From assembly GCF_003590795.1 (NCBI RefSeq), contig NZ_QYUL01000001.1:575001-639000 (forward strand): a stretch of DNA of 64,000 nt, written 5' to 3'. This stretch comes from Azospirillum cavernae (lineage in GTDB: Bacteria; Pseudomonadota; Alphaproteobacteria; Azospirillales; Azospirillaceae). Shown piece by piece: positions 12,224 through 57,376 of this stretch. A program made the translations under genes and the position numbers. The number at the start of each line of letters is the position of its first letter. Position 1 is the stretch's first letter. The notes under the pieces are model-generated. The model did no database searches. It was not told where the DNA came from and worked only from the letters and a program-made list of their open reading frames with translations.

Positions 12224-12250
12224 CGACCACGCCCACGCTCCCCACAAACA

Positions 12251-14119: not shown

Positions 14120-14120
14120 G

Positions 14121-15616: not shown

Positions 15617-15645
15617 GGGGGATCAACCTTCCGGTCGTTTAATTC

Positions 15646-15662: not shown

Positions 15663-15680
15663 TTGAAGCGTCTGATTTGC

Positions 15681-15709: not shown

Positions 15710-15887
15710 CGCAAATACATTATCTAGTTGTTTAATAGGATTGTGTTGTTTGTGTGAAATATGTTGATTGTCTCCCGCATCAGCGGCTAAATACCGACAT
15801 GCGCCAGAACCCCGCTGATTTCTGTGTAATTTTCCGCCGCCGCGCCCTCCGCCGCCCCCTCAACCGTCGGGTCCATGGGGGCCGCCG

Positions 15888-17275: not shown

Positions 17276-17317
17276 ATGTTGCCGCCGAACGTTTTTGAGA
17301 AGCGAGGAGAGCCAGAC

Positions 17318-17629: not shown

Positions 17630-17693
17630 GGCTGCGGCCTTAGAGACCCCGCCCTTCGCGCCTTTGCCCGCCCACGCCCTTGGGAACCGTGAC

Positions 17694-19875: not shown

Positions 19876-19879
19876 AAGC

Positions 19880-20089
19880 CAGGGTTATCGCATTTGGCGT
19901 CAAATCTCCCTCTCCCGCTCCGGGAGAGGGAAGGGGCCTGCCGCGAAGCGGCGGGAAGGGTGAGGGGTGATCCAAGGAGCCATGCGGTTTTGGACTCTTG
20001 GGCCACCCCTCACCCTCCCCACTCCGTGGGTCCCCTCCCTCTCCCGGAACGGGAGAGGGAGATTCAACGCCACATGCGATAAAACCCTG
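19880..20089. repeat. About 210-base intergenic element with long inverted ends
   Basis: The left end CAGGGTTATCGCATTTGGCG continues through CAAATCTCCCTCTCCCG; the right end, read in reverse complement, is CAGGGTTTTATCGCATGTGGCG followed by TTGAATCTCCCTCTCCCG. Each end also carries its own small hairpin (CCCTCTCCCG-CTC-CGGGAGAGGG at left and CCCTCTCCCGGAACGGGAGAGGG at right), and inside are paired GTGAGGGGTG and CACCCCTCAC tracts. There is no coding potential. It resembles miniature or mosaic palindromic elements of alphaproteobacterial intergenic DNA. Confidence 0.75.
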
Positions 20090-41811: not shown

Positions 41812-43865
41812 GCCTCACCCTCTCCGTTCCGTTGTTTTTGAGCGACCTTGGCGCACCAGCGCCGCCACAACGCGCGGTAAACACGCTCCAGATGGCGGGC
41901 CATGCGGGGGGCGTCGCACAAAGAAGAAGCCAAAACCCGCTCCCGCAGCCCAGCCCGCAGCGTCGCCAGCCCATGGCTGTCGGTCGCCGCACGCTGGGCG
42001 ATGGCGATGTAATCGTCGGGCGAGTCGGCGATGAAGGACGTCAGTCCGACGGTCGTCAGGATGGAGGCGCTCCACCGGGCGACAAGGCGCGGCTGCGGCA
42101 GGGTCACGACCGGCACGCCCATGAACAGGGCCTCGAAGGTGGTGGTGGATCCGCTGAAGGGGAACGGGTCGAGCGCCACGTCGACGCCGTCATACAGCGC
42201 CAGATGCTCGGACACGCTGTTCAGGCTGCCGGGCAGGAATTCGACCCGCGTCGGATCGACGCCGCCCGCCACGAGGTGGTCCAGGATGCGCGCACGGCAG
42301 GCCGGGGCGTCGTAGTGTTTTTGATACTTCAACCGCAGCCGCGCGTCCGGCGTCGCGCTCAGCACCCTGGCCCACAGATCCAGCGTCGCGTCCGACATTT
42401 TGGCCGGGTTGTTGAAGCAGCCAAAGGTGGGAAACCCGTTGCGCAGCAGCGGCGGCGGGGTCAGCGGCGGCGGATCATCCGGCGGCGCCATGATGACGTA
42501 GGAGGGCAGGCGCATCAGACGTTCGGTGAAACATTCGCTCAGCGGGCGGGCGCCGATCACCCGATCAACGATCAAGGCGTCGATCACCGGCATGGCGCTG
42601 GTCGTCACGTCGTGGTGGCTGATCTGGACCGGCGCCGGTTGGTGGGCGCAGACGCTGAGGCGGTTCCCGTCGAAATGCCCGGCGAGGACCACCAGAATGT
42701 CGATGCCGTCGGAGCGGATTCCCTGGGCGAGCGCCTCGTCGCTCAAACCGGCGACCATGCGCCAGCCGCCGCTCAACGCCTGGAACCGCTCCACGGTGGG
42801 GTCGAGGATGGGAATGTCGGAATAGACGAACAGGTCGAACCGCTCGCGGTCATGCGCCCGCAGAACCGGCTCAAGGTTGCGCGCCACCGGCTGGGCGGCG
42901 TGCAGATCGGTGCTGAGATAGCCGACGCGCAGGCGACGGTTGGGATCCGGCCAATTGGCGTGCGCGGGATCCTGCGGATAGAGCGGGCGCAGGAAACGCT
43001 CCTCGAACGCATGCGCCGCTTGAAAGCATGGTTCGGCGTCGGGCAGCGGCAGATACAGCCCGGCGCTGGCGATCGCGTTGACGACGTCGATCCGGTGCGG
43101 CGCCAGCCGGTTGGCGCGGGCAAGGCACATCGCCGCCTCACGCGGGCGGGAGAGGTTGAGCAGGCTGCAACCCATGTTGTGCAGCGCGTCAACATGGGTC
43201 GGGTTGGCGGCGAGCGCGACGCGCAGCCGAACCTCGGCCATGTCGTGCCGCCTCGCGTCCACGACGTCGAGCCATGCCAGATTGAAGGCGGCGGCGCTGG
43301 CGGGATCCAGGCGGGCGGCGCGGTGGAGCGCTGTTCGCGCCTCTTCGATCCGCCCGATCTGGCCGCTCATCGCGCCGACGTCCAGGATCGGCCCGGCGGC
43401 GCTGGGGTCAAGCGCCGACTGAACGCGGGCCAGGGGAATCGCCTCCGCGTAGCGACCCTGCCAACCCCAGCGTTCGCAGAGCTGGCGCAGCGCCTCGACG
43501 ATGTCGCCGCGCAGCCGCAGCGCGCGGCGGAGCAAGGTCTCCGCAACATCCTGATGACCGGCGGCGTTGAACACGGCGGCGGCGGAGAGGAGATGGGCCG
43601 GGGATTCTGGGGACAAGGCCAGGGCGTGCAGCAGATTTTGCGCGGCAAGATCGTGACGACCAGATTGCGAGGCCAGAACGCCAAAAAGTTGCCAGACATC
43701 AGCCTGGGCTGGCTCGCGTTCCAGAATCAGCCGGTATTGCTCCTCCGCTTCGGCGACGCGGCCGGATTGGTGATGCGCGAAGGCGGCGATCAGCGGCGCG
43801 TTGGTGTCCAACATGGTCGATGCGGGAATGGTGAGCGGGAACGCCACCATAGCGGGCGGGGCCAT
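41808..43865 (-). CDS. TPR protein with GT41 (O-GlcNAc transferase-like) glycosyltransferase domain
   Basis: A protein of up to 685 residues. The N-terminal half is a stack of TPR repeats (for example HHQSGRVAEAEEQYRLILEREPAQADVWQLFGVLA). The C-terminal half carries the GT41/SPINDLY-like domain: RLRVGYLSTDLHAAQPVARNL, PAPVQISHHDVTTSAM, FGCFNNPAKMSDATLDLWARVL, RVEFLPGSLNSVSEHLALYDGVDVALDPFPFSGSTTTFEALFMGVPVVTLP. Such enzymes transfer sugars to protein Ser/Thr. The start is ambiguous (ATG 43865, 43850 or 43814). It lies 39 bases after an ABC exporter gene and is coupled to the methyltransferase. Confidence 0.9.
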   Translation of the reverse strand: MAPPAMVAFPLTIPASTMLDTNAPLIAAFAHHQSGRVAEAEEQYRLILEREPAQADVWQLFGVLASQSGRHDLAAQNLLHALALSPESPAHLLSAAAVFNAAGHQDVAETLLRRALRLRGDIVEALRQLCERWGWQGRYAEAIPLARVQSALDPSAAGPILDVGAMSGQIGRIEEARTALHRAARLDPASAAAFNLAWLDVVDARRHDMAEVRLRVALAANPTHVDALHNMGCSLLNLSRPREAAMCLARANRLAPHRIDVVNAIASAGLYLPLPDAEPCFQAAHAFEERFLRPLYPQDPAHANWPDPNRRLRVGYLSTDLHAAQPVARNLEPVLRAHDRERFDLFVYSDIPILDPTVERFQALSGGWRMVAGLSDEALAQGIRSDGIDILVVLAGHFDGNRLSVCAHQPAPVQISHHDVTTSAMPVIDALIVDRVIGARPLSECFTERLMRLPSYVIMAPPDDPPPLTPPPLLRNGFPTFGCFNNPAKMSDATLDLWARVLSATPDARLRLKYQKHYDAPACRARILDHLVAGGVDPTRVEFLPGSLNSVSEHLALYDGVDVALDPFPFSGSTTTFEALFMGVPVVTLPQPRLVARWSASILTTVGLTSFIADSPDDYIAIAQRAATDSHGLATLRAGLRERVLASSLCDAPRMARHLERVYRALWRRWCAKVAQKQRNGEGEA

Positions 43866-43904: not shown

Positions 43905-45770
43905 TCAATCCATCGCCAGATGGGCCAGATGCGGGGAGGCGGCTTTTACGACGGGCCAAGGGCCGGATGCGACCAGCCGCCCGGCGTCGAGGACGATGAC
44001 ATGGTCGGCGAACTGAACGGTCGATGGCCGGTGAGCGATCAGCACAATCGTGATGCTGGCCTTCAGAGTCTGCATCACGTTCAGGATGCGCTGTTCGGAT
44101 TCATGGTCAAGCGCGCTGGTCGCCTCGTCAAGAATCAACACATCCGGCCCCGACAGCAGCGCCCGCGCCAAGGCCAGCCGCTGGCGCTGACCGCCCGACA
44201 GCAAGGCGCCGCGATCACCCACCATGGTGTCGAGGCCCTGGGGAAGCGCCCGGACGAAATCGGCGGCGTCGGCCTGCTCCAGGGCCGCCCACAAGCGTTT
44301 ATCGCCGTCGCCGCCGCCGTTCGCCCGGCACGCGATGGCGAGATTGACCCGAACGCTGTCGCGGAACAGGAAGCTGTCCTGCGGCACATACCCGACGCGC
44401 CGCCGCCAGGACCGCCGCGCCGCGCCTCCGGCCACCGGCTGGCCGTCGATCAGCATCCGGCCCTGGTCTGGTTCGATGAGGCCGAGCAGCAGGTCGGCCA
44501 GCGTCGATTTTCCGGCGCCCGACCGCCCAACCAGGGTGGTGACGGCGCGCGCGGGCACGACCGTGTCGATGCCGGACAAGGCCCATGGGCCATCCGGGGT
44601 GTACCGGATCCCAACGCCGTCCAACCGCACCCCCTGCGTCAGCGCCGCCGTGTGGGACAGGTCGGCCGGTGGCGACGCGGCAGGCGTTTCCGAGTCCACC
44701 ATGTCGGTTCGGCAGCGGTTCAGAAGGTCAAGCACGGCGGCGTGGGCGGGCAGCGCGTGCAGCACGATCCGCCAAGCGTCCTGGATGCGCTGCGCCGTGG
44801 TGAGAAGCCGGGCGAAGGCCGCCATCAACACCAGGGTTCCGGCCAGTTCCATATCCAGAACCCGCACAGCGAACCAGACGGCGACCGCCGCCGCCGTTGC
44901 CGCCAACCCCTGCGTCACCGCGCGCGCCCATCCGGATTGGCGTTGAAACGCGATCATGTCGGCGCGGACGTCGCGCATGCGCGTTTCAAAAAGCCGGGCG
45001 CGCTCCGCCTCCAGCCCGATGGCGCGGATCACCCGCATGCCGGCCAGATCCTCCGACAAGTCGCGGTGCAGGGCTTGCATCCCGGCCACGGCTTGCCGCC
45101 CGAGTCGGTGGGCGTGGCGGCTCAATGGCCGCGACAGCGCCAGAGACAGGGCGCCCAGCGCCAGCGCCGCGCCGGTCATCGTAGGCGACAGCCGCAGCGC
45201 CACGGCCAACAGAACCGGGATTTCCACCGCCCAACCGGCGGAGCGGAGCAGGAATTCCAGACCGTTCGCGGCGCGTTGCGCCTCGCCGATCACCGCGTTG
45301 ACCACCTCCGCGCCAGCCAGCCGGTTGAAGGCGCGCCATTCCATCCCGGCGACCGCCTCGTGCAGTTGGCGGCGCAGATGGTCGACATAGCCGAGCCGCA
45401 GGCGCGCCACCCGATCCCCGCGCGCCGCGATCACCAGCGCCGCCGCCGCGACCAGGATCACATAGAGCGCCAACGCGCCTTCCAGCCCCAGAGGCGCCAG
45501 CCACAGATCGCCTTTTCCCGCTTGTCCGCCCCCAACCCCGACCATCGACAAAAGCGGCGCCAGCAGCAGCAGGCCCGCCCCTTCAGCCAGGGCGGCGATC
45601 ACGGTCAGCGCCGCCAGCCCCCCCAGCCGCCAACCGGCGAACGCGGCGACGTCATGGAGGAAGCGCGCGAATTCGCCGATTGGCGTCTTGGCGGCCAACC
45701 AGAGGCGGGGCAGATGGAACTGGAACAACGGCATGTTGGTTCGCGGCTTTCTGGCGGGCGGGCGGCGCAA
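43905..45770 (-). CDS. ABC exporter (fused membrane and ATPase domains)
   Basis: A protein of up to 621 residues. About six membrane helices (from WRLGGLAALTVIAALAEGAGLLLLAPLLSMV on) are followed by an ATPase domain with Walker [10 protein letters not shown], signature LSGGQRQRLALARALLSG, Walker B VLILDEATSALD and H-loop IAHRPS. It belongs to the exporter class that includes lasso peptide exporters (McjD) and lipid flippases. It lacks an N-terminal C39 peptidase domain. Next to the lasso cluster but divergent from it, it is the best candidate in the window for peptide export. First gene of the operon with GT41 and methyltransferase. ATG 45734 is an alternative start. Confidence 0.9.
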   Translation of the reverse strand: MRRPPARKPRTNMPLFQFHLPRLWLAAKTPIGEFARFLHDVAAFAGWRLGGLAALTVIAALAEGAGLLLLAPLLSMVGVGGGQAGKGDLWLAPLGLEGALALYVILVAAAALVIAARGDRVARLRLGYVDHLRRQLHEAVAGMEWRAFNRLAGAEVVNAVIGEAQRAANGLEFLLRSAGWAVEIPVLLAVALRLSPTMTGAALALGALSLALSRPLSRHAHRLGRQAVAGMQALHRDLSEDLAGMRVIRAIGLEAERARLFETRMRDVRADMIAFQRQSGWARAVTQGLAATAAAVAVWFAVRVLDMELAGTLVLMAAFARLLTTAQRIQDAWRIVLHALPAHAAVLDLLNRCRTDMVDSETPAASPPADLSHTAALTQGVRLDGVGIRYTPDGPWALSGIDTVVPARAVTTLVGRSGAGKSTLADLLLGLIEPDQGRMLIDGQPVAGGAARRSWRRRVGYVPQDSFLFRDSVRVNLAIACRANGGGDGDKRLWAALEQADAADFVRALPQGLDTMVGDRGALLSGGQRQRLALARALLSGPDVLILDEATSALDHESEQRILNVMQTLKASITIVLIAHRPSTVQFADHVIVLDAGRLVASGPWPVVKAASPHLAHLAMD

Positions 45771-46098: not shown

Positions 46099-46641
46099 AT
46101 GAGCGATTGGTTCCTAGGTGAAATTCGACTGTTTCCGATGAACTGGGCTCCGCAAGATTGGCATGTGTGTGACGGAACTGTCATGCAAATCCAACAGAAT
46201 CAGGCGCTGTACTCGCTGATCGGGACGACCTACGGCGGGGACGGGAAAAACACCTTCCAATTGCCCGACCTGCGCGGACGGGTGCCGGTCGATCAAAACT
46301 ATAACGACACTTCGGGCGAGTATGTGCGGGGCAAGGCCATGGGCGTGGAGACCGTGGCGTTGACCGCCGCGCAGACCCCCCAGCACCAGCACACGCTGAA
46401 CGTGTTGAGTACGGCGGGCGCCACAGCCAACTCGGTTGGGTCCAGCATCTCCGGGACGGCGACAAGCCCCATCGTTCTCGTGGCGCCAAACCTTTTCGCC
46501 TCACCCGGCCCGGCTCCGATACCGCTCAACCCGGCCGTCCTCTCGACGACAGGCGACGGCGCGGCGCACAACAACATGCAGCCTTTCCTGGTTTTGAACT
46601 TCTGCATCGCCACAAGCGGCATCTATCCGCCGCGCAACTGA
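46099..46641 (+). CDS. Phage tail collar domain protein 1
   Basis: A 180-residue protein of the MdpB/tail-collar type. The N-terminal collar domain reads FLGEIRLFPMNWAPQDWHVCDGTVMQIQQNQALYSLIGTTYGGDGKNTFQLPDLRGRVPV, the family hallmark. It is followed by a His-rich turn (QTPQHQHTLNV), a variable Ser/Thr/Gly stretch, and the closing NMQPFLVLNFCIATSGIYP. GGGAGGAGGGA precedes ATG 46099. Three such genes in a row with no other phage gene suggest a cellular surface or secreted filament rather than a prophage. Function unknown. Confidence 0.9.
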   Translation: MSDWFLGEIRLFPMNWAPQDWHVCDGTVMQIQQNQALYSLIGTTYGGDGKNTFQLPDLRGRVPVDQNYNDTSGEYVRGKAMGVETVALTAAQTPQHQHTLNVLSTAGATANSVGSSISGTATSPIVLVAPNLFASPGPAPIPLNPAVLSTTGDGAAHNNMQPFLVLNFCIATSGIYPPRN

Positions 46642-46675
46642 TGACGACCAGAAACCTTAGGAAAGGAAACACCCC

Positions 46676-47236
46676 ATGAGTGATTATTTTGTTGGCGAAA
46701 TTCGCTTGTTCGCTGGAAAGTACCCACCAGCCAACTGGAATTTGTGCGACGGCACCCTTCTGAAGATCTCCGAGTATCAAGCCCTCTACGCCATAATCGG
46801 CACGACCTATGGCGGCGACGGCGTCAACACTTTCGCCCTTCCGGATCTGCGTGGCCGCATTCCGATTGGCCAGGGTACGGGGACCGGCCTGACAAATCGC
46901 GTGTTGTCCCAGAGCGGCGGCGCCGAGACCGTCGCCTTGACGGCGGCGAACATGGGGCCGCACACCCACAACCTGGTGACTGCGGGCGCCGCCGCCGCCA
47001 GCCCGACGCCCGGCCCCACCGTCATGTACGCCAACACGGCGTCGCCGACGACTCAGTATCTTAAGTCTGGCTTGGGGACCGCTGGCGCGACGCCGACCAA
47101 TCCGATCGCCGGCACGATTTCCACCGCTGGCTCAATTTCCACCGCTGGCTCAGCGACGGCGCACCCCAACGTCATGCCAACCGCCATTCTGACTTACATG
47201 ATCGCCTTGAATGGCACTTTCCCCACCCGCGCGTAA
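46676..47236 (+). CDS. Phage tail collar domain protein 2
   Basis: A 186-residue relative of the preceding gene product: FVGEIRLFAGKYPPANWNLCDGTLLKISEYQALYAIIGTTYGGDGVNTFALPDLRGRIPIGQG is the collar domain, then MGPHTHNLVTAG (His-turn), a low-complexity ISTAGSISTAGS repeat, and PTAILTYMIALNGTFPTR. It starts 34 bases after its neighbour with AAGGAAA upstream. The internal repeat of STAGSI indicates a flexible linker. Confidence 0.9.
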   Translation: MSDYFVGEIRLFAGKYPPANWNLCDGTLLKISEYQALYAIIGTTYGGDGVNTFALPDLRGRIPIGQGTGTGLTNRVLSQSGGAETVALTAANMGPHTHNLVTAGAAAASPTPGPTVMYANTASPTTQYLKSGLGTAGATPTNPIAGTISTAGSISTAGSATAHPNVMPTAILTYMIALNGTFPTRA

Positions 47237-47251
47237 GAGAGGGGCAAAAAT

Positions 47252-47836
47252 ATGGACGCCTTTATCGGAGAAATCCGCATTTTCCCCTTTGGCTATATTC
47301 CGCAGGGTTGGCTCGCCTGCAATGGCGGGCAATACAATGTGCAGGACCATCAAGCGCTCTATAGCATCATTGGCAACACCTGGGGTGGCACAGCGATGCA
47401 GACCTTCAAGGTGCCCAACCTTGCGGGTTTCTGCGTGATGGGGCAGGGCACAGGCCCCGGCCTGTCGCCCCGGTCGTGGGGCGCCACCACGGTCGGCGCC
47501 AAGACGGCGACGCTCAACTCTGCGCAACTGCCCTCGCACACCCACACGCTGACCATCCAGGGAGCGGTTCCGGCCCAGGCATTGACGAACACCACGGCCA
47601 CGCCGACCGCCAACCAATCCTGGCTGGCTCGTCCGGTGCAGCCCAATTCCACGGGCGCCAACGCGGTGCCGGCCTACACCAAGGTCACAACCCCCAACAG
47701 CACCCTGCACCCCAACACCATCGCGCCCGCTTGCGGCATCGCGGCCGGCGCGGTGAGTCCGCACGAGAATCGGCAGCCTTACCTGACCATGGTGTTCGCC
47801 ATCAACGTTGACGGCGTATACCCGGTGCGGAACTGA
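47252..47836 (+). CDS. Phage tail collar domain protein 3
   Basis: A 194-residue third member: FIGEIRIFPFGYIPQGWLACNGGQYNVQDHQALYSIIGNTWGGTAMQTFKVPNLAGFCVMGQG shows the same collar domain, though the DLRGR motif is changed to NLAGF. Then LPSHTHTLTIQG and ENRQPYLTMVFAINVDGVYPVRN. It starts 15 bases after gene 2 and has GAGGGG upstream. The three proteins differ mainly in the middle segments, as expected for subunits of one assembly. Confidence 0.9.
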   Translation: MDAFIGEIRIFPFGYIPQGWLACNGGQYNVQDHQALYSIIGNTWGGTAMQTFKVPNLAGFCVMGQGTGPGLSPRSWGATTVGAKTATLNSAQLPSHTHTLTIQGAVPAQALTNTTATPTANQSWLARPVQPNSTGANAVPAYTKVTTPNSTLHPNTIAPACGIAAGAVSPHENRQPYLTMVFAINVDGVYPVRN

Positions 47837-47846
47837 TCTTTTGCCG

Positions 47847-48371
47847 GTGACGCCCAAACCAACCCTCGCGCCGCCCGCCCCTTGGGCGGCGCGAGGGTTC
47901 GCCTTGCGGACTGAAGCCGTTGAGGATGCTCCCTTTTTGTTGCGGCTCTACATGTCCGTGCGGATGGCGGAGCTGGAGCCGACGGGGTGGCCCGAGGCGA
48001 TGAAACACGCCTTCCTGACCTCCCAGTTCGCGTTGCAGACGCGCCATTACGCCGCCGCTTACGCCGATCCGGATTTCATGATCCTGACCTGCGGAGACGA
48101 ATCGGTCGGACGGCTGTATCTTGCCCACACCGACGCGGATTTGCGCGTCGTGGACGTGTCGCTGTTGCCGGAACGGCGGGGGGGCGGGCTGGGGCGCGCG
48201 CTTCTTCAGGCCGTGCAGGCGCGGGCGGCGGACGACGGGCGAACGGTGAGTCTGAGCGTGGACATGCGGAACCCGGCGCAAAATCTCTATCGCCGCTTGG
48301 GTTTCGTCGAGGATGGAACGGAAGGACCGTCCTGGCGTATGATCTGGCGCTCACCCACCCCGCCAGCGTGA
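47847..48371 (+). CDS. GNAT family N-acetyltransferase
   Basis: An acetyltransferase of about 174 residues. The fold starts at GFALRTEAVEDAPFLLRLYMSVRMAELEP, and the acetyl-CoA motif is VVDVSLLPERRGGGLGRALLQAVQARAADDGRTVSLSVDMRNPAQNLYRRLGFVEDG. The start is uncertain: GTG 47847, TTG 47808 (overlapping the collar gene) or TTG 47902 after the hairpin. It follows the collar genes and precedes the lasso precursor, so it could acetylate either product, but nothing in the sequence tells which. Confidence 0.88.
   Translation: MTPKPTLAPPAPWAARGFALRTEAVEDAPFLLRLYMSVRMAELEPTGWPEAMKHAFLTSQFALQTRHYAAAYADPDFMILTCGDESVGRLYLAHTDADLRVVDVSLLPERRGGGLGRALLQAVQARAADDGRTVSLSVDMRNPAQNLYRRLGFVEDGTEGPSWRMIWRSPTPPA
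47861..47899 (+). terminator. 16-base perfect hairpin after the third collar gene
   Basis: AACCCTCGCGCCGCCC (47861-47876) pairs perfectly with GGGCGGCGCGAGGGTT (47884-47899) around a 7-base loop, 24 bases after the collar gene stop. There is no T-run. It falls within the 5' end of the GNAT frame, so it could act as an attenuator, or it may show that the GNAT start is further downstream. Confidence 0.6.
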
Positions 48372-48522: not shown

Positions 48523-48681
48523 ATGAATTCGCGTGACTCCTTGAATCCGGTGAATGCCGCGCCCGTTCTTGGCAAGAAGGCCTGGATGGCTCCGGAAATC
48601 CGCGATCAGGCCATCAAGAGCCTCACTGAAGCAAAAACCAACCAAACGAATGAAACGGATCCTTCTTTCGGCCCGTCGTAA
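48523..48681 (+). CDS. Lasso peptide precursor
   Basis: A 52-residue peptide. The leader has an aromatic-x-x-Pro motif (W21-x-x-P24 in KKAWMAPEI), the place where B1-type proteins bind, and a conserved Thr at the penultimate leader position (T35 in SLTE). Cutting after E36 gives a 16-residue core AKTNQTNETDPSFGPS: Ala1, acceptor Glu8 for an 8-membered-count ring, and C-terminal Ser16. By established knowledge lasso rings join residue 1 to Asp/Glu at 7, 8 or 9. AAGG lies 8 bases before ATG 48523; an in-frame ATG at 48478 is unlikely. The core codons are less GC-rich than the neighbours. The kinase gene follows after 52 bases. Confidence 0.82.
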   Translation: MNSRDSLNPVNAAPVLGKKAWMAPEIRDQAIKSLTEAKTNQTNETDPSFGPS

Positions 48682-48733
48682 CGCAGGTCTGTCTTCTGAT
48701 TTGTGTTGGTGTCGTTAATCGTAGAGATGATCG

Positions 48734-49645
48734 TTGTTTTACTATCGAGTCTGCGGTCTTGCCGTCGCATCCGATTTTCCTCTTCCAGGGATGGTGATCG
48801 CAGACGAGGTCTTGTCTCAGACGGATGTGCGCGTTCGGTGCGGCACGGCGCCAGCAGCGCTGGACGCCGCAATTCGGGTCGGGCCGACGTGGCAACTTGA
48901 CGACGCCGCTTTTCTGTTTCGGGTTCCACAAGTCGCGCGTTTCCTCGTCACGAATGGAAACGAGGTTGTCGTTGATCTCCACGCGTCGTCGACCACCACC
49001 GACGCCGCGCCCTTCCTGCTGGGCACCGCCTTCGGCGTCTTGCTTCATCAGCGCGGACAGCTTGTTTTGCACGCCGCCACCCTTTCGTATCGGGGCCGGG
49101 GGGTGGCCTTGTGCGGCGTCACCGGCGCCGGGAAATCCACCCTGGCGGCGGCGCTTTGCCAGGCGGGTTGTGATTTCGTTGGCGACGACGTCGCCGCCAT
49201 CCGCTTCGATGACGGCGGTGTGCCCACCATCCTGCCAGATGGGCGGCAGCACCGATTGTGGATGGACGCTGTCGAACAGCTTGCGCTGACCGATTGTCTG
49301 GGACCGCCAGTTCGACCATGCCTTAAAAAATTCCACGTTGATCCGCCGAGGATGGCGACGCAAGGACCGACGCCGCTAACCACGATCATCATCCTGCGGA
49401 AAGCGGATTCACCAGGTCGGTTCGATTTGACGCCGCTGGATCCTGTCGACGCCGCTGCGTTGGTGCGCGACGAGGTGTATCGCTCAAAGACGGCCAGCCA
49501 TCTGGGGCGCGACGCTGACCTGTTCCAGCAGATCGCCGCCTTGCTCGGTCGGGTTCGGGTTTTTCTGCTGGACCGCGCCATGGATTTCGCATTGCTGGAC
49601 GACACGGTCGCCGCTGTGCTCGCGCAGATCGACAAGGAGGTGTGA
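48734..49645 (+). CDS. HPr-kinase-like lasso peptide kinase
   Basis: A 303-residue protein of the HprK-related family that, in characterised clusters (paeninodin type), phosphorylates the C-terminal Ser of the lasso precursor. The kinase core shows His113 in VLHAATLSYRG, Walker A GVTGAGKST (128-136) and the GDD acid pair at 150-152. The N-terminal YYRVCGLAVASDFPLP segment is typical of these stand-alone kinases. The start must be TTG 48734, because a stop codon lies 6 bases upstream in frame and the next ATG is residue 20. The C-terminal Ser of the adjacent precursor fits its expected target. Confidence 0.88.
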   Translation: MFYYRVCGLAVASDFPLPGMVIADEVLSQTDVRVRCGTAPAALDAAIRVGPTWQLDDAAFLFRVPQVARFLVTNGNEVVVDLHASSTTTDAAPFLLGTAFGVLLHQRGQLVLHAATLSYRGRGVALCGVTGAGKSTLAAALCQAGCDFVGDDVAAIRFDDGGVPTILPDGRQHRLWMDAVEQLALTDCLGPPVRPCLKKFHVDPPRMATQGPTPLTTIIILRKADSPGRFDLTPLDPVDAAALVRDEVYRSKTASHLGRDADLFQQIAALLGRVRVFLLDRAMDFALLDDTVAAVLAQIDKEV

Positions 49646-50496
49646 TGCCGTCCGGGGGCAAGATCGTTTGGCTCGCCTCTTACATGAAATCAGGCAACAC
49701 ATGGCTTCGGTTGCTGATCGCCAATTATCTTTTCGCAGCCGACGCGCCAATCGACATCAACCGGATTGATCTGAACAGCCCTTATCCGGTTCGGAAGGAT
49801 TTTCTTGAGGAAAAAAGCATCGTTGATCCGAATCTGCTCAGCTTTGACGAAACAAACCTTCTCCGCTCCATCATTATGGAGGATTTTGTCCAGCGGTGCG
49901 ACAGGATCAATTGCATCAAGGTCCATGACAAACACGGCGTCACCATCGATGGCACGCCTCTCTTCGGGCGGGGGGACGCTTGGTCAGCGGTTTATATTCT
50001 CCGCGACCCGCGCGACGTGGCTGTATCGCTGGCGTTTCACTACAATGTGACGTTCGACCGCGCGATCAAGATGCTGAACAACCCCAAACAGCGGATCGCT
50101 GGATATCGTGGCAAATACGTCCCGCAGGTTGAGCAAGGGGTCAGCGATTGGAGCGCCCATGCCGCAAGTTGGGTCGACCAATCCGATTTTCCCGTCCATA
50201 TCCTGCGATTCGAGGATTTGCGGGCCAATCCTGTGGAGGCGTTCGGCGCGGTGGTCGCCTTTATGGGGCTTGAAAAGCGACAGGAACGGGTGGAGCGCTC
50301 CGTTCGCTTCAGCGATTTTACTGAGTTGCAACGTCAGGAGCGCCAATCCGGTTTCTCCGAACGCTCGTCGCGATCAACCGCGCCTTTCTTCCGATCCGGT
50401 CGGGTTGGAGCCTGGGCCAAGGTTCTGACCACGGCGCAGAGCGACGCCATCGCCGCCGCCCACCACCCGATGATGGAACGATTCGGGTATTTGTGA
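49645..50496 (+). CDS. Sulfotransferase domain protein
   Basis: A 283-residue PAPS-dependent sulfotransferase. The 5'-phosphosulfate loop is SYMKSGNTW at 12-20, the 3'-phosphate motif is ILRDPRDVAVSL around 118-129, and a catalytic-type His94 sits in KVHDKHG. ATG 49645 overlaps the kinase stop (TGATG) and has a perfect AAGGAGGTG ribosome site, so kinase and sulfotransferase are made together. The obvious peptide target is the lasso product, with Ser or Thr as acceptors (the core has four Thr/Ser besides the C-terminal one). PAPS can be supplied by the CysC domain of the cysNC gene. Confidence 0.9.
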   Translation: MPSGGKIVWLASYMKSGNTWLRLLIANYLFAADAPIDINRIDLNSPYPVRKDFLEEKSIVDPNLLSFDETNLLRSIIMEDFVQRCDRINCIKVHDKHGVTIDGTPLFGRGDAWSAVYILRDPRDVAVSLAFHYNVTFDRAIKMLNNPKQRIAGYRGKYVPQVEQGVSDWSAHAASWVDQSDFPVHILRFEDLRANPVEAFGAVVAFMGLEKRQERVERSVRFSDFTELQRQERQSGFSERSSRSTAPFFRSGRVGAWAKVLTTAQSDAIAAAHHPMMERFGYL

Positions 50497-50576
50497 TAAG
50501 CATGCCGGGCAAAAATGCCCACCGAGCGGCGCGGCTGACGCCGGGGCCATGCAGGGGCAAGACGACGGAGACATCC

Positions 50577-50876
50577 ATGAACAACCCGACGGAAGCTTGC
50601 GGAACGCTTCGCCGCGCCGATGGCCTGCTGACCGCCGATGTCGACGGGGAACTGCTGATGATGAGCGTCGAGCAGGGCCGTTACTTCAATCTGAACTCCG
50701 TTGGCTCCCGCATCTGGGAACTGCTCGCGGCGCCGGTGGCGGTCGATGAGTTGGTGGACGCGCTGACCGCTGAATATGACGTGGCCCCCGACGAGGCCCG
50801 GCAGGAGGTCGAGCGTTTTCTGGGCGCGCTGCGCGAACGTGGCCTGCTCGTCACGGACAATGCGTCGGCTGCGTAA
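50577..50876 (+). CDS. PqqD-family leader-binding protein (lasso B1)
   Basis: A 99-residue RiPP recognition element of the PqqD fold. It runs ADGLLTADVDGELLMMSVEQGRYFNLNSVGSRIWELLAAPVAVDELVDALTAEYDVAPDEARQEVERFLGALRERGLLV, the standard three-strand/three-helix pattern. Such proteins bind the leader of the precursor and hand it to the B2 protease. GGAG precedes ATG 50577. The B2 gene begins inside its last codons (17-base overlap). Confidence 0.92.
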   Translation: MNNPTEACGTLRRADGLLTADVDGELLMMSVEQGRYFNLNSVGSRIWELLAAPVAVDELVDALTAEYDVAPDEARQEVERFLGALRERGLLVTDNASAA

Positions 50877-51396
50877 ACTCCTCGCCCTGCCGTTGGCGGA
50901 TCAGTGGCTGGCAGCGGAGGCGGCGGTCTGGTTGGCGTTGGCGCAGCTTCTGCTGGCGGTTTTGCCCTTCCGGTGGATCGCGATCAGCCTTGGTCCCCTG
51001 GCGCGTGAACGATCCGATGGAGCCGTCGCCCCGGTCGATCTGATTCGGCAGGCCCAAGTCCGGCGGATCGGTCAGACGGTTGAGCGAACCGCCCGCCATC
51101 TGCCATGGACCGCGCTTTGCTTGCCCCAGGCGCTCGCCGCCAGGGCCATGTTGGGCCGACGCGGCATTCCCGCCACCGTGCATTTCGGCATGGCTCTGTC
51201 CGATGACGAAACGACCGATCAAGAGGCGACTGAGGGCGGGCGGCGGATGCTGGCCCATGCCTGGGTGACGGTTGGCCGGACGGGGGTGGTTGGGACGCCC
51301 GCCGCCGGGCGTTTCGCTGTGGTCGCCCGCTTCACCCATGAAACGGGCAATCACGAAACGGGCAACCACGAAACGGACGGCCAAACCGTTGGGTGA
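50860..51396 (+). CDS. Lasso peptide leader peptidase (B2, transglutaminase-like)
   Basis: A 178-residue cysteine protease of the lasso B2 family that removes the leader. Cys87 lies in WTALCLPQALAARAMLGRRGIPATVHFG and His133 in LAHAWVTVG, the expected Cys-His pair and spacing. The usual acidic third residue about 12 positions after the His is not evident (VVGTPAAG). The C-terminus carries three copies of HETGN-like repeats (from 15-base tandem DNA repeats) that are not part of the family. ATG 50860 overlaps the B1 gene. The hydrophobic N-terminal stretch WLALAQLLLAVLPFRWIA is normal for the family. Confidence 0.9.
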   Translation: MRRLRKLLALPLADQWLAAEAAVWLALAQLLLAVLPFRWIAISLGPLARERSDGAVAPVDLIRQAQVRRIGQTVERTARHLPWTALCLPQALAARAMLGRRGIPATVHFGMALSDDETTDQEATEGGRRMLAHAWVTVGRTGVVGTPAAGRFAVVARFTHETGNHETGNHETDGQTVG

Positions 51397-51429
51397 CAAC
51401 GCGCCGCATCCGTGATGTCGCCGCGCGTG

Positions 51430-53340
51430 TCAGTGATGTTGCCGAACATAGGAAATAAAGCGTAAAACACGCGGCGCCGTTTCCGCAACCTTGCGCAAAG
51501 CCCGGTCGCCACCCAATTCGCCCGAGCGGCGCAACGCCTCTTCCGGGGGCGGCAAGGCGCGCAAACGCTGTTCCAAAGCCTCCAGATCGAACAGCGCGTT
51601 GATCCGTGGGTGTCCGCGCAGGTCGGAAAGCTGACGGAGCAGCGTGTCGCGTTGCAGGGCGACGACCAGGGAGGCCTCGGGAAAAGGGGTATGTTTGGTG
51701 GAGTTTTTAAGGATCTTGTCCGGCAGGATTCCAATCATGGCGTCGCGGTACAGCCGCCGCGAAACACCGTCGCGCAGGAACAGCGCGCTTGGCAACGACA
51801 GCGCGAATTCGATCACCCGACGGTCGAGCAGGGGGAAAGCGGCGGCAATGCCGGTGCGGGCGCCCGTCAGCGCCCAATGTTCGGGCCGCCGCGTCAGAAC
51901 CGGCCCGTTCAGGAGGCGCAGACGATTGGCGACGGCGTTGGGGCGCATCGGCGGCGACGGCGGGGGGACGCCGCCCATCGCCTCGTTGCGCAACAGCAGC
52001 CTGATTGAGGTCATTGGCGCGCTGTCCCGCGTTCTGCCGAGCAGACTCCGGGCGAAGGTCTGAATGGCGTCTGGCAGCAGATAGTTCAGCACCTCGCCAC
52101 GCAGCGTATCCGTCATCAAACAGCCCCTGGCGACGGACACCGCCCGAATCTCGCGCGCGAACCTCCACCAGCGACCGGCGAGCAGCGCTTCGGCCAGGGC
52201 GCCGCGACCGTTGAAGGACGCCCCCTCATCGCCGCCCCACCCTGAAAGAAAAATCTGCGCGCCGCGCGCCGCCGCGTCCATGCAGATCCACGCGTTGGGA
52301 TCGGCGGGGTCGAACGGCAGGGGTTGATCGCAATCCATCCGGGGCAGCAGAAAATCCAGCGGAGGGCCAATGCGCGCGGGAATGCTGACGATGTCCGGTT
52401 CCTGGTCCAGCACCGTTTGGGCGAGCGGACCTTCGCCGTCCGGCGCATAGTCTCCCTGCGGCGTCGGCAGGAATGGGTAGGCGAGCAACGGGCGCCCCGT
52501 CGCGCGCAAGGCGCGGGCGGCGAGGACGGTGATGGAGGGGGAATCAAGCCCGCCGCTCAGGTGAGTCGCCACCGGCCCGGTTTCCGGCAGGCGGACGCGG
52601 ACCGCTTGCGTGACCAGCGCCGCCATCTCTTCGGCGGCCTCTTCCGGGCGGCAACGGTTTTGGCCTGCGGTCGCCGGGTCGAGCCGCCAATGCCGCCCGC
52701 TTTCCCGCCGACGCGCCGACACACGCGTCCACGCCCCCACCGGAAGCCGTTCAACGCCGCGAAGCACGGAGCGGTTGTTGGGCGTCCCGCGCATCAACAG
52801 CGTGCTCAGAAGGGCGGCTTCGTCGAGTTCCCGCGCGACGAAGCCGCTGGCGTTCAGGCCCCGAGGCAGCGAGGCGAAGGCGAACACCCGATCCGGTTGA
52901 TCGTTGATGAAGAGCGGTCGGACCCCCATGCCGTCACGGGCGCACAGCAGCGTTTGATCGCGCGGATCCCAAGCGGCCAGGGCGAAGTCGCCGAAAATGC
53001 CGCCAAGCCCTCCGTCGGACCCGTCAGCCTCCCGACGTTCCAGCGCGTTCAACAGCGCGGCCTCGTCGGTTTTTCCGTCGGCGCCTTCGTAGAGTCGAGC
53101 GTCAGCGGCCAGCACGAGACCGCTCGCGCCGCGCGGCAGGGCGGTGGCGGCGGGCGGGTCAACGCGCGGAATGGCGGCGGCTGGCGCAAATTCAAGCGTG
53201 GCGAGCGCCATCGGCCCTTCGACAAAACTCGCCACCGCAGGGGTCAGGCCCGACTCGATCATGGCGGCGACCATGGCGGCGAGCCGCCCGGCCTCAGCCG
53301 GTCGGCCGTCAAGATGGAGGAAGCCGCAGATCAACCGCAT
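51430..53340 (-). CDS. Lasso peptide cyclase (C, asparagine synthetase-like)
   Basis: A 636-residue ATP-dependent isopeptide synthetase that activates the side chain of the acceptor Glu/Asp and closes the ring with the new N-terminus. An N-terminal glutaminase-like domain (MRLICGFLHL, GIFGDFALAAWDPRDQTLLCARDGMGVRPLF) precedes the synthetase domain with PP-loop SGGLDS at 262-267. The rest (FLSGWGGDEGASFNGRG, AAFPLLDRRVIEFALSLP) matches AsnB/McjC proteins. It is encoded on the strand opposite to A-K-ST-B1-B2 and ends 33 bases from B2. Last gene of an operon with two oxygenase genes and an unknown gene. Confidence 0.92.
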   Translation of the reverse strand: MRLICGFLHLDGRPAEAGRLAAMVAAMIESGLTPAVASFVEGPMALATLEFAPAAAIPRVDPPAATALPRGASGLVLAADARLYEGADGKTDEAALLNALERREADGSDGGLGGIFGDFALAAWDPRDQTLLCARDGMGVRPLFINDQPDRVFAFASLPRGLNASGFVARELDEAALLSTLLMRGTPNNRSVLRGVERLPVGAWTRVSARRRESGRHWRLDPATAGQNRCRPEEAAEEMAALVTQAVRVRLPETGPVATHLSGGLDSPSITVLAARALRATGRPLLAYPFLPTPQGDYAPDGEGPLAQTVLDQEPDIVSIPARIGPPLDFLLPRMDCDQPLPFDPADPNAWICMDAAARGAQIFLSGWGGDEGASFNGRGALAEALLAGRWWRFAREIRAVSVARGCLMTDTLRGEVLNYLLPDAIQTFARSLLGRTRDSAPMTSIRLLLRNEAMGGVPPPSPPMRPNAVANRLRLLNGPVLTRRPEHWALTGARTGIAAAFPLLDRRVIEFALSLPSALFLRDGVSRRLYRDAMIGILPDKILKNSTKHTPFPEASLVVALQRDTLLRQLSDLRGHPRINALFDLEALEQRLRALPPPEEALRRSGELGGDRALRKVAETAPRVLRFISYVRQHH

Positions 53341-53374: not shown

Positions 53375-53752
53375 TCAATTGAGCGACCCGTCAAAGTCGA
53401 TGTCGACATAATGCGGCGGCGCCCAACTGTTCTGATCCGGCGTCCGGGCGTCGCGTTCCAGGCTGGCGCTGGGTGACGCGAAAGGTTCAGCGCGTTCCTG
53501 CGGCAACAGGATCAGGTCGGCTTGCCAATGGGGCATCGCCTCAACCGGAGACGACGGCGCGCTGTCCGTCGCGTCGCCGACCAGAAAGCGCAGAGCGGCG
53601 TCGAATCCCGGAGTCTCGCCTTTGGTCAGTCGCCCATGAACAAAGCCGCGCGCGCGCAAATAGGCGTCGACGTCGATGTGTTCGGCAACGCCCGCCTCGG
53701 CGTGGATCACCGCGTCGGCGAGGGGGCCTCCCACATAAGCGGACGGGATCAT
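53375..53752 (-). CDS. Unknown 125-residue protein of the lasso operon
   Basis: No domain was recognised. The N-terminal half looks folded (DAVIHAEAGVAEHIDVDAYLRARGFVHG, with FDAALRFLVG), and the C-terminal half is rich in Pro/Ser/Glu and ends PPHYVDIDFDGSLN. Its start overlaps the oxygenase stop (ATGA) and the cyclase gene follows after 34 bases, so it is surely part of the operon. It may be an adaptor for the oxygenase or the cyclase. It is too long and lacks the leader motif for a lasso precursor. Codon use is like that of its neighbours. Confidence 0.6.
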   Translation of the reverse strand: MIPSAYVGGPLADAVIHAEAGVAEHIDVDAYLRARGFVHGRLTKGETPGFDAALRFLVGDATDSAPSSPVEAMPHWQADLILLPQERAEPFASPSASLERDARTPDQNSWAPPHYVDIDFDGSLN

Positions 53753-54378
53753 GACGTGCGACGGCTCCGGTACCAGCAGTTGATGGCGAAACGCTGGTCC
53801 CTGAACGCGCCGGACGGGCAGGCGACCGGGCGCACCTCGTGGGGCGCCCAGGAGGGGAACAGCAGCAGCATGTCCTGTTCTGGCGTGATGTCCAGGAACT
53901 GTCCACCCTGTTCGGGCGGCAGGATGGAATGCAGCCGCAATTCGCCGCCGCTGTAGCTTTTGGGTTCGGCGTGGAAATAGTGCACGCCGGTCAAGGCCCG
54001 ATCCGTCGTTTTGTCGGACGGGCCGGTTCGCGTGTCGATGTGCCGTCGGTAGAACGCGCCATCGCCATGGGCGACAAGCTCAATCTCCAACCGACCCAAA
54101 TCGAAAGATGACAGGCGCAGATCGGCGACGGTCGGATCCATGACCGACAGAAAACGCGCCTCCAACGCGTCCCGCAGCGATCCGAAATCCCGCAGAACCC
54201 GTGAGACGCGCATCTCGGGATTGATTTTCCTGTCGCCAACCCCGGTGGGCCTGAAGGTGTCCCGGTTGGCTTCGGCGTGAGCCAGCAACTGGCCGATCAA
54301 ATCGGAGCCGAGAAAATTGCGGATCACCCGGTGGGGGGCGGGCTGCTCGAAAGCGCGCAGGGCGGGGGCGGTGCTCAT
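53749..54378 (-). CDS. 2-oxoglutarate/Fe(II)-dependent oxygenase
   Basis: A 209-residue oxygenase of the prolyl-4-hydroxylase-like (2OG-FeII_Oxy) group. The iron ligands are His113-x-Asp115 (RRHIDTRTG) and His180 (SWAPHEVRPV), and Arg196 (FRDQRFAINCWYR) would bind 2-oxoglutarate. The strand GGELRLHSILP precedes the distal ligand as expected. It is translationally coupled to the unknown protein and shares an operon with the lasso cyclase. Hydroxylation of the lasso peptide or of another protein is plausible. Confidence 0.9.
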   Translation of the reverse strand: MSTAPALRAFEQPAPHRVIRNFLGSDLIGQLLAHAEANRDTFRPTGVGDRKINPEMRVSRVLRDFGSLRDALEARFLSVMDPTVADLRLSSFDLGRLEIELVAHGDGAFYRRHIDTRTGPSDKTTDRALTGVHYFHAEPKSYSGGELRLHSILPPEQGGQFLDITPEQDMLLLFPSWAPHEVRPVACPSGAFRDQRFAINCWYRSRRTS

Positions 54379-54420: not shown

Positions 54421-55704
54421 TCAGGGCGTCGGCGCTTGGTCGCACGGAAGGACGTCGAGCGCCACGCAGATTCGCGGCTCGCCCACGCCTGTGGGAATGG
54501 TCCCATGTCCAAGGAAGGAGGGGAAAATCAGCAGCGTTCCGTCCTGCGGCTCCACGCGCCAGCGTGGAAAATCCGGCAAGGATTCCCCGATGAACCGGGG
54601 CCAGGGGCCGAAGGCGAGCGATCCCGGTGGCGGCGCCTCGCGCTCCGCGCCTCGCGTCTCGCTCGTCGGAACGCGCGCGTAGTAGACGACGGTCAGCCAG
54701 CCCTGGGGATGAATGTGAGTCTCTTCGTGCCCGTCATCCGACAGGACCAGCGCCCAACCCTGCAACCGCGCCGTTTGCGGGCGATGGGCAATCAGCGGGT
54801 GCGGCGCGTTGAGACGCTCCGCCAGATAATCATCGACCTGTCGGCGAACGACGGCGAGCAGATTGCGGATCGCCGGATGTTCAACGCTGGCCAGCCCTTC
54901 AAGGCGCAGATTGCGCCCGTACGTCGGCTTGGTCTCCGGCGATGGGGCGAGCGCCGGGTGCGTCAGGATCGCCTGGGTCAGCTCCTCATTGTCGATCAGC
55001 CCGGAATCCAGTTCGATTCGGCGGCACAAATATTCCGGGTCGATCAAGCGAACGACGTCCGACGTTCGACCGGCCAAGGAAAGCGCGGCGGACAGATAGG
55101 CGAGATGAAGGGTGGAGCCGACGCCGCCGTCGATGGCCCCCTGACACAAGCTCGCCAGATCCTCGGCGGCGCCGTGCGTCAGGCAGTCGTTCGCGAAGGC
55201 GCCCAGCACCATGCTGTCGCTGGGATTCTCGTCCAGAACCTGCGCCGCCGCCGTCCGGGCCTCGTCGATCCGGTTCAGGGCGTAGAGGGCAAGGACTCTT
55301 TGTCGGCGCGCGTCTCGCGCTGTTCCGGCGATCTCTGGGGCCAAGACCCTCAACGCCAGGTCCGGCTGGTCGCAGGCGATCGCGGCCTGCGCCAACTCAC
55401 ACGCGAGCGCCGGCGTCAGCCCGCCTTTTTCCGCAAGCGGGGACAGAAGGTCGTGGATCTCCACCCAACGCCGATCGTCCCGAAGAGCGACCGCAAGATC
55501 GCGCAGCAGATCGGGGCGGTCAGGGCGCGCGGCGACGGCGGCGCGCAGCAGCGGCAAGAAAGACCGGGCGGGCGGGCGTCGTGTTGGCTGGTCCGTCCGC
55601 CAAACGATCTGGGGTCCGTGGGTTGGCATCATTCTGTCGCGCGGATTGATCTGGGGGGAGAATGGATCAAGCGGCGCTGGAGAGTAAAGCTGCATGCGCG
55701 CCAT
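54421..55704 (-). CDS. TPR-like helical protein with C-terminal 2OG-Fe(II) oxygenase domain
   Basis: A protein of up to 427 residues. Residues ~50-250 form helical TPR-like repeats (LPLLRAAVAARPDRPDLLRDLAVALRDDRRWVEIHDLLSPL and onward). The C-terminal domain matches the putative 2OG-Fe(II) oxygenase family with the THIHPQGWLTVVYYARVP motif: His330 and His332, distal His400 (FPSFLGHGTIP) and Arg411 for the cosubstrate. The His-x-His rather than His-x-Asp is the usual form for this family. It is the first gene of the operon that ends with the lasso cyclase. ATG 55704 is used; ATG 55632 is also possible. Confidence 0.85.
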   Translation of the reverse strand: MARMQLYSPAPLDPFSPQINPRDRMMPTHGPQIVWRTDQPTRRPPARSFLPLLRAAVAARPDRPDLLRDLAVALRDDRRWVEIHDLLSPLAEKGGLTPALACELAQAAIACDQPDLALRVLAPEIAGTARDARRQRVLALYALNRIDEARTAAAQVLDENPSDSMVLGAFANDCLTHGAAEDLASLCQGAIDGGVGSTLHLAYLSAALSLAGRTSDVVRLIDPEYLCRRIELDSGLIDNEELTQAILTHPALAPSPETKPTYGRNLRLEGLASVEHPAIRNLLAVVRRQVDDYLAERLNAPHPLIAHRPQTARLQGWALVLSDDGHEETHIHPQGWLTVVYYARVPTSETRGAEREAPPPGSLAFGPWPRFIGESLPDFPRWRVEPQDGTLLIFPSFLGHGTIPTGVGEPRICVALDVLPCDQAPTP

Positions 55705-55894: not shown

Positions 55895-56689
55895 ATGCGG
55901 TCCTTGCTTTCCGGCCTTGGGCCGGACGATGTTCGTCTCGATCCTTTTCCCCATTTGGTTGTGCCGAACGCGCTGGACGAGGAGACGCACCAGCGGCTCA
56001 GCGAGACGTTTCCGCCCTTTTCGATGATCGGTTGGGCGGGTAAGGCCACGCCGCGCAGCAACTGCCGCTTTCAACTGTCGGCGTGGCAGATCATGGAAAT
56101 GACGCCGCTACCTGACATATGGAAGGCGTTCGTCGGCCATCACAGCGCGCCCGCCTTTTTTGCGGAGGTGGTGGCTCTGTTCCGCGATCATTGGCCGACG
56201 GCTCTCAAAGAGGCGCTGGGCGGCGATCTGCTGAACCATTCGATGGGGCTGATGATGCGCGACAGCTTCAATGAGGCGCGCATTCTTCAAGACGCGCGGG
56301 CCGAGATCAACACGCCGGTTACGACCGTCCCCTCCACCTCGCGGGGGCCGCATCTTGACATGCCAAATCGGCTTTTTACGTGTCTTTACTATCTTCGCCA
56401 TCCCGATGATGACGCGGTGGGGGGTGATTTGGAGCTGTTCCGTTGGAAGAATGGCCCGATCTCCAACACGGAGACATACGCGCTGCCGGGTGATTCGGTG
56501 GAGGTCGCCGCTGTCGTTCCCTACCAGGCCAATCAGATGGTGATCTTTCCGCAGGGGATCGACGCGATCCACGGCGTCAGCGTCCGCCATCCGACGCCTC
56601 ACACCCGCCGTTACGTCTTCATCAGCGCCGAGATTGAGCAAAACTGGCTGGTGTCGCCTGCGGCGGCGACAGTGTCCGGGGAGGGGTGA
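55895..56689 (+). CDS. 2-oxoglutarate/Fe(II)-dependent oxygenase, second type
   Basis: A 264-residue oxygenase. Iron ligands are His153-x-Asp155 (RGPHLDMPNRLFTCLYYLRHP) and His226 (GIDAIHGVSVRHP), with Arg238 or Arg239 (TPHTRRYVFISAEIE) for 2-oxoglutarate. It is divergent from the TPR oxygenase gene across 190 bases and is followed without gap by a sulfotransferase-like gene. GGAGATGAGG lies before ATG 55895. Together with the operon on the other strand it gives the region three oxygenase-type proteins. Confidence 0.9.
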   Translation: MRSLLSGLGPDDVRLDPFPHLVVPNALDEETHQRLSETFPPFSMIGWAGKATPRSNCRFQLSAWQIMEMTPLPDIWKAFVGHHSAPAFFAEVVALFRDHWPTALKEALGGDLLNHSMGLMMRDSFNEARILQDARAEINTPVTTVPSTSRGPHLDMPNRLFTCLYYLRHPDDDAVGGDLELFRWKNGPISNTETYALPGDSVEVAAVVPYQANQMVIFPQGIDAIHGVSVRHPTPHTRRYVFISAEIEQNWLVSPAAATVSGEG

Positions 56690-57376
56690 ATGAGGATTCT
56701 GGTTTACGGCATGCAGTCGAGCGGCTCGACCGCGTTCACGCTGTTCCTGGCGCAACGATCGGATTGTTTGGCGCTGGTCGATGTCCCCAACAATTTCGCG
56801 GCGCCCCGCATCGTTACCGACCTGGACATGGTGACGAAGGTGGTCGTGACCACGGCCTATCCTCTGGCCGTGCATCTTGAGCGTTTTCGTCCTGACCGGG
56901 TCATTCTGCTGTTGCGGGATCCCCGTGACAATTATGTCAGCCTGCGCACCAAGGGATACCGGAACTACTCCGGCTTGATCGACGAGAAATTCCTGATCCT
57001 GGATCAGATGTTCGCCGAGCGCGAACGCTTTGACGCCGTCATCGAATATGAGGATTTTGTCGCGCGGGATCCGGCTGTGCTTGAGACGATCCGGGCGCTT
57101 GGCTGGCCGGTGGAGGATGATTTCTACAACTACCGGCGCCGCCACAACGAAATGCTGGCGGCGCTGTGGCAGCATGTTCCTGATCTGATGCCGGACTTTG
57201 AGTTCGTGTTCGGCAATGTCCGTGGCGCGGAAGTTTCAAACCGTTTTGTCGGGCAGACCCGCGACGAGGAACTGGACGCCAAGTTGGAAAAACTGTGCCC
57301 CCGCTTGCTCGCCCATTACCGGGCGCGCCCGCTGACTGGCGTTAGGGCAGATCGCGTTAAATCGGGATCAATGTGA
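56690..57376 (+). CDS. Sulfotransferase-like P-loop protein
   Basis: A 228-residue protein with a sulfotransferase-type nucleotide loop (MRILVYGMQSSGSTAFTLFLAQ) and the 3'-phosphate motif VILLLRDPRDNYVSL. The loop SSGSTA differs from the usual KSGTTW, but the rest of the fold (VIEYEDFVARDPAVLETIRALGWP near the middle) is typical of bacterial sulfotransferases. It starts directly after the stop of the oxygenase gene, so the two act as a pair. It is clearly different from the sulfotransferase at 49645-50496. Confidence 0.82.
   Translation: MRILVYGMQSSGSTAFTLFLAQRSDCLALVDVPNNFAAPRIVTDLDMVTKVVVTTAYPLAVHLERFRPDRVILLLRDPRDNYVSLRTKGYRNYSGLIDEKFLILDQMFAERERFDAVIEYEDFVARDPAVLETIRALGWPVEDDFYNYRRRHNEMLAALWQHVPDLMPDFEFVFGNVRGAEVSNRFVGQTRDEELDAKLEKLCPRLLAHYRARPLTGVRADRVKSGSM

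Follow-up and report, generated by a model that had tools for sequence, protein, structure and literature searches.

Lasso peptides are usually regarded as the products of self-contained A-B-C-D clusters. The locus described here lies in a stretch of 64,000 nucleotides from Azospirillum cavernae (assembly GCF_003590795.1, contig NZ_QYUL01000001.1, positions 575,001 to 639,000 of the forward strand), referred to as the window, and is a candidate lasso-peptide cluster with a kinase (K) and a sulfotransferase (S) of its own. The closest described systems are paeninodin (PadeK/ThcoK), SyanA/SyanK of Sphingobium and Bsf of Bradymonas, which have in common with the window split B1 and B2 proteins, an AsnB-like C protein and an HprK-like kinase with the motif H-GxxGxGKS-DD (PMC8498205, PMC9266682, PMC10368454). 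The paeninodin and Syan precursors end in a C-terminal Ser, as does that of the window, whereas the Bsf precursor is modified at Ser3 instead. Proteobacterial kinases of the SyanK type phosphorylate this C-terminal Ser on the linear precursor (PMC8498205). The occurrence of both an HPr kinase and a sulfotransferase among lasso cluster genes was already noted in 2014 (PMC4289311), and a 2021 review mentions the sulfotransferase of Firmicute clusters (PMC8498205); both genes are noted in clusters of Gram-positive anaerobes and Firmicutes, as in the window. In those clusters, however, the sulfotransferase is described as standing first, whereas the window has a coupled kinase–sulfotransferase pair, in Proteobacteria. 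CanE of canucin A is a 2-oxoglutarate (2OG)-dependent lasso hydroxylase that acts on the linear precursor with B1 (PMC9266682). The window cluster also contains 2OG-Fe(II) oxygenases, although these are several and different, one being prolyl-4-hydroxylase (P4H)-like and truncated. Compared with paeninodin, Syan and Bsf, the window adds S directly after K, 2OG oxygenases, a convergent C gene, and an adjoining triplet of collar genes with a GNAT gene.

Gene content, protein families, motifs, conservation and linkage, as read directly from the sequence, indicate that the window locus likely encodes a lasso-peptide pathway. The sequence-only reading had proposed six genes, and all were recovered in place by family and profile matches. 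Five lie on the + strand: the gene for a precursor A of 52 aa (48523..48681), K (48734..49645, with a TTG start), S (49645..50496), B1 (50577..50876) and B2 (50860..51396). The C gene (51430..53340) lies convergently on the − strand. B1, a PqqD-type leader-recognition protein, exceeds the cut-off of NF033536 (83.8 bits vs 80) and resembles solved lasso B1 structures, TbiB1 and another in the PDB. B2, a transglutaminase-like leader peptidase, is above the cut-offs of NF033537 (70 bits vs 33) and PF13471, and its catalytic Cys and His are conserved. It is the sole PF13471 protein of the genome, and is intact and local to the cluster. C, an AsnB-like macrolactam cyclase, matches PF13537 (GATase_7) and PF00733 (Asn_synthase) and retains the SGGLDS ATP motif. 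In a tree of 60 cyclase-like proteins and two asparagine-synthetase paralogues from the same genome, C was found in a clade of 12 (support 100/99) with both paralogues outside. C also has no Cys at position 2, the class II glutaminase site: aligned N-termini read MRLICG, MRLIGG and MTAIAG, that of the window being MRLICG, and some relatives have Gly or Ala in place of the Cys at column 5. By contrast, L140, an AsnB-type protein of the same genome, begins MCGL. Since the clade excludes the paralogues and Cys2 is gone, C does not group with ordinary asparagine synthetases, the outcome that had been named as fatal to the prediction.

The leader of precursor A contains KKAWMAP. The predicted core, AKTNQTNETDPSFGPS, would comprise the ring AKTNQTNE (A1-E8) and the tail TDPSFGPS, the final GPS giving Ser16, a C-terminal Ser as in kinase-tailored lasso precursors of the paeninodin and Syan kind. 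The sequence-only reading had staked itself on this small precursor recurring in relatives, and it is indeed conserved beside the core genes in loci L013-L019, L066, L067 and others. Orthologues adjoining K in other genomes show [K/R]xWxxP and Thr(-2), begin the core with Gly, Ala or Val, have Glu as residue 8 or 9, and end in Ser, as in the precursor ends of L014 (TTQAKSNSPNESSPNTGPVS), L066 (LTQAKSLSPSESSPNTGPS), L015 (LTEGKAFANPTEASPATGS) and L018 (VTEGAGTSGMEGTNFLKPGS). Precursors beside K in unrelated families share WxxP, T(-2), G/A/V1, E8/9 and the C-terminal Ser. The lasso precursor rule of T(-2) with Asp or Glu at 7-9 holds in the window and in the relatives' candidate precursors; the pattern that found most of the latter itself demands T(-2) and an acidic residue, and the earliest ones were found without it. 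A terminal Ser was present in 31 of 39 pattern hits at <=1.5 kb from core genes vs 4 of 22 elsewhere (p=4e-6), with a pattern blind to the last residue and related loci counted separately. One precursor that departs from this, from Azospirillum sp. TSH100, ends in TASG. A precursor search in plasmids gave no match.

K is a distant HprK-like peptide kinase, matching TIGR04352 at E=5e-12, far below the cut-off, and HprK structures at 2e-7 in a structure search. The His-Lys-Asp-Asp motif is kept (LHAA, GAGKST and GDD aligned), and its His, Walker A and Asp-Asp residues match those needed in ThcoK and BsfK (PMC9266682, PMC10368454). Phosphorylation of Ser16 of the core is probable. S is a sulfotransferase of the PAPS (3'-phosphoadenosine 5'-phosphosulfate) type, with a PF00685 (Sulfotransfer_1) match at E=2e-21 and the motifs KSGNTW and RDPRDVAVS; a structure search matches TEG12. 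If S begins at the ATG within TGATG (49643-49647), it shares one base with the stop codon of K. In 47 of 48 pairs from the sampled genomes, S follows K directly and in the same orientation, the median gap being 47.5 nt by profile bounds, which makes the coupling a group trait. K and C are encoded on different strands in 23 of 45 K-S cassettes, about half. The overlapping tandem and the convergent cyclase had both been called unusual; the former turned out to be a conserved operon pair and the latter commonplace. The lasso pathway with split B genes is supported by curated models, precursor conservation and the cyclase tree; the grounds given for surprise are not supported. Sulfation of the core peptide has about an even chance of being correct, and the literature searched yielded no sulfated lasso peptide. 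One relative (L066, positions 1-20000; genome G396) carries three kinase–sulfotransferase cassettes and two B2 genes within 20 kb.

Three PF07484 collar genes and a GNAT gene (46099-48371, + strand) adjoin the lasso genes. They encode collar protein 1 (46099..46641; MdpB or tail-fibre-like, E=3e-28), collar protein 2 (46676..47236; E=3e-27, its N-terminal part resembling the T4 short tail fibre), collar protein 3 (47252..47836; E=7e-20) and a GNAT acetyltransferase (47808..48371; PF13508, E=1e-10) overlapping collar 3. The collar domain is common to these proteins, to the receptor-binding domain of the T4 short tail fibre gp12 (1OCY) and to the PF07484 'microcystin-dependent' collar proteins, the fold match being led by the N-terminal part. 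Unlike T4 gp12, the window proteins are small and stand-alone (180-195 aa), and form a fixed set of three paralogues beside genes for a ribosomally synthesized and post-translationally modified peptide (RiPP). The collar model, with a mean pLDDT (predicted local distance difference test score) of 67, is good solely at the N-terminus; its hit to the T4 short tail fibre has E=1e-4. No phage genes were seen around the collar genes, and literature searches found no published link of collar or tail proteins with lasso peptides.

The collar profile was searched in 100 relatives without reference to lasso genes, and every strong triplet was inspected. K was found within ~10 kb of 18 of the 25 triplets, where a rough estimate from K density would put the number expected by chance at <0.1; the seven without a nearby K are in G032 (at a contig end), G057, G109 and, four of them, G114. 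Starting from B2, 13 of 22 inspected loci were found to have both K and a collar triplet. Triplet and GNAT stand beside the kinase lasso clusters of L018 (GNAT upstream), L020, L068-L072, L082, L104, L105, L117, L118, L124, L126, L127, L129, L132, L133, L136-L139, L165 and L168, and GNAT is immediately downstream in 21 of 23 other K-linked triplets. The three collar positions showed 8 label changes vs 41.5 in shuffles, and are distinct old paralogues. The same arrangement is found in named records, those of plasmid p1 of Azospirillum sp. TSH100 and an A. oryzae plasmid, as three genes annotated 'tail fiber protein', GNAT, lasso B2 and asparagine synthase. Two narrower rules were tried: that GNAT follows the collars solely in K-linked triplets (against 0 of 5 K-less triplets) was corrected, L163 being an exception, and that collars are tied mainly to S-bearing cassettes (15/38 vs 1/12, p=0.07) was dropped in view of S-less Azospirillum loci with collars (L126, L127, L129, L133, L137 and L139). 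At L087 (7146-10950), a PqqD-like B1, GNAT and a collar triplet have neither K nor C in the surrounding 10 kb, and may be a remnant or another RiPP type. The collar module beside the locus, and the fact that in relatives B2 frequently stands apart from the cassette, are less expected than the K-S pair or the convergent C, and had been missed.

Two intact oxygenase genes lie on the cyclase strand. Ox1 (53749..54378, −; PF13640, E=4e-17) is linked to K cassettes in L014, L015, L066, L077, L103, L020, L021 and others, and Ox2 (54421..55704, −; tetratricopeptide repeat (TPR) and 2OG-Fe(II) oxygenase regions, PF13759, E=1e-16) is conserved in L013, L014 and L066. A third gene (53375..53752, −) is a deletion remnant of a P4H-like 2OG oxygenase that keeps the N-terminus and the C-terminal tail: full-length homologues in L014, L066 and L015 carry the HxD...H region, and the window copy has lost that catalytic half. 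Searched against the PDB, the model of the L014 homologue (mean pLDDT 72) hits prolyl-4-hydroxylases, at best with E=1.4e-6. The 2OG-Fe(II) oxygenase Ox3 (55895..56689, +; PF13640, E=3e-6) is paired on the opposite strand with a second sulfotransferase-like protein, ST2 (56690..57376, +; PF13469, E=1e-4, below cut-off). The earlier placing of oxygenases beside the cyclase holds for two genes, the third there being truncated and another lying on the other strand. The Ox3-ST2 pair is conserved in L071, L082, L136, L137/L145, L162 and L169, and ST2 occurs in 12 of the 100 relatives. In lasso-free Azospirillum genomes (L157-L161), the neighbour of Ox3-ST2 is a single, longer collar protein, in most cases with a weak GNAT match lying in between. 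The collar proteins may therefore be what Ox3, ST2 and GNAT act on; modification of these rather than of the peptide is the more likely role. The module in L157 (7387-10791) adjoins a very large adhesin-like open reading frame (ORF).

B2 is absent within 8 kb in 18 of 38 K-S-C cassettes, some of these loci being cut by contig ends, and at least one B2 is carried by 33 of 34 kinase-bearing genomes. Eight of these B2 genes stand alone, with none of K, S, B1 and C in the ~10 kb around them (L084, L085, L097, L146 in Tistrella mobilis, L147, L148, L150 and L156), with those of L146, L147 and L097 being near-identical copies in sister species. On the simplest reading, such distant or orphan B2 proteins would be shared and act in trans for the cassettes. 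The exception, G085, lacks B2 throughout its genome; part of its sulfotransferase is deleted internally, which makes decay of that cluster probable. The idea that B2 is dispensable was softened, since all other kinase-bearing genomes have it. A B2 scan of genome contigs returned one locus only, in Niveispirillum sp. SYP-B3756. At L016 (11585-12793), in a genome devoid of B2, an ATP-grasp protein (PF14397) is encoded between C and B1 of the cluster.

From these comparisons we infer the reactions, the ring size, lasso threading, the target of sulfation, export and the coupling to collar proteins. B1 would bind the WxxP part of the leader, and K, aided by B1, would phosphorylate the C-terminal Ser16. 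The translation of S is probably coupled to that of K, and S would put sulfate on a hydroxyl group, either one of the core or one on a hydroxylated residue. Possible substrates of Ox1 and Ox2 are Pro or Asp/Asn residues of the core, which they may hydroxylate. B2 would cleave the leader after Glu(-1), the residue next to Thr(-2). C would then activate Glu8 with ATP and join it to the amine of Ala1, giving an 8-residue ring with an 8-residue tail. The product would be exported by an ABC protein encoded at 43905..45770 (− strand; membrane and ATPase parts, PF00664 and PF00005, with no peptidase domain matched), of a type that also adjoins the clusters of L124, L126, L127, L129 and L136. The col-col-col-GNAT operon would be a stable partner module of this lasso type, and its products are probably tail-fibre-like proteins outside the cell or at its surface.

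Several observations weigh against this reading: among NCBIfam models C scores best with NF033535, the lasso cyclase, and yet at 193.7 bits (E=6e-57) falls far under the cut-off of 525; the tails of the closest relatives, SSPNTGPS and ASPATGS, have no bulky residue to lock the thread, so a modification must serve as plug or the ring may be unthreaded; one window oxygenase is truncated; S could act on a molecule other than the core peptide; and the collar link is statistical, with triplets also occurring without lasso genes (L086, L088, L089, L092 and L163). The low score, and best solved-structure matches to a hydroxyamidotransferase and AsnB, would suit an ordinary asparagine synthetase or amidotransferase whose neighbours belong to something else. 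This is very improbable given the constant company of A, K and B1, and an ordinary AsnB was rejected as a candidate on the tree placement and the lost N-terminal Cys. The tails bear rather on the possibility that C, B1, K and S make a RiPP other than a lasso peptide, in which C closes a side-chain macrolactam that is not threaded or forms an amide on some other target, with B2 dispensable. Such a product would account both for these tails and for the many cassettes without a near B2 (18 of 38), the genome of G085 has no B2, and pseudomycoidin, to judge from a title cited in PMC9266682, is obtainable without a leader peptidase. It is nevertheless unlikely: nearly every kinase-bearing genome (33 of 34) carries B2, the G085 cluster is probably decaying, the precursors fit lasso rules in having T(-2) and being acidic at position 8 or 9, and the B2 of the window is intact.

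A different doubt, compatible with a lasso peptide, concerns the collar triplet and GNAT, which might be hitch-hikers in a shared insertion hotspot with no functional tie. The triplets that exist alone, the lasso-free genomes with Ox3-ST2 and a long collar protein, and the Niveispirillum copy (L013), which has GNAT and no collar genes, all favour hitch-hiking, and its probability is appreciable, if somewhat short of even. Against it, the linkage recurs in many families and also in the two named plasmid records, and the order col-col-col-GNAT stays the same while its orientation and position relative to K vary, a pattern that a single insertion event would not produce. A functional tie between collar module and lasso genes, beyond a shared hotspot, is plausible, at slightly better than even odds. 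A more elaborate version of the lasso reading, a composite system in which a proteobacterial kinase/sulfotransferase lasso peptide has three dedicated collar proteins as, for example, carrier, anchor or delivery partner and several cassettes of a genome share one orphan B2 in trans, is tentative and on balance doubtful.

The conserved locus is wider than the interval 48523-53340 first assigned to it: it covers ~43.9-57.4 kb of the window, from the ABC exporter (43905) to ST2 (~57376), and includes the collar genes, GNAT and the oxygenases. A block at ~47.87-56.52 kb is shared, with gaps, with Niveispirillum sp. SYP-B3756, most blastn pieces being 91-96% identical and that across the truncated oxygenase 84%; the collar genes and the exporter lie outside the block. 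The C proteins are 96% identical, whereas just one other sampled congener, G032, gave a cyclase hit, at 41%, which points to spread of the locus by horizontal exchange. The Niveispirillum copy (L013, 9138-17578) is decaying, with a TAG in B2 and with GNAT and Ox1 broken; a transposase-like ORF lies near its contig end. Two further features of the window were noted by eye: a TPR protein adjoining the exporter (41808-43865) that resembles O-GlcNAc-transferase-type glycosyltransferases, and an ORF at 38761-40176 whose C-terminal part is GatA amidase-like and fused to unrelated upstream sequence, possibly a truncated duplicate.

What would this locus mean for lasso peptides and their partners? If B2 is shared, genome mining that requires B2 inside the cluster overlooks about half of this group. 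Sulfation of a lasso peptide, if confirmed, would to our knowledge be a modification of a new kind. Should the collar triplet and GNAT prove to be true partners, they would offer a lead on the natural role of phosphorylated lasso peptides, and also on the function of the 'microcystin-dependent' collar proteins.

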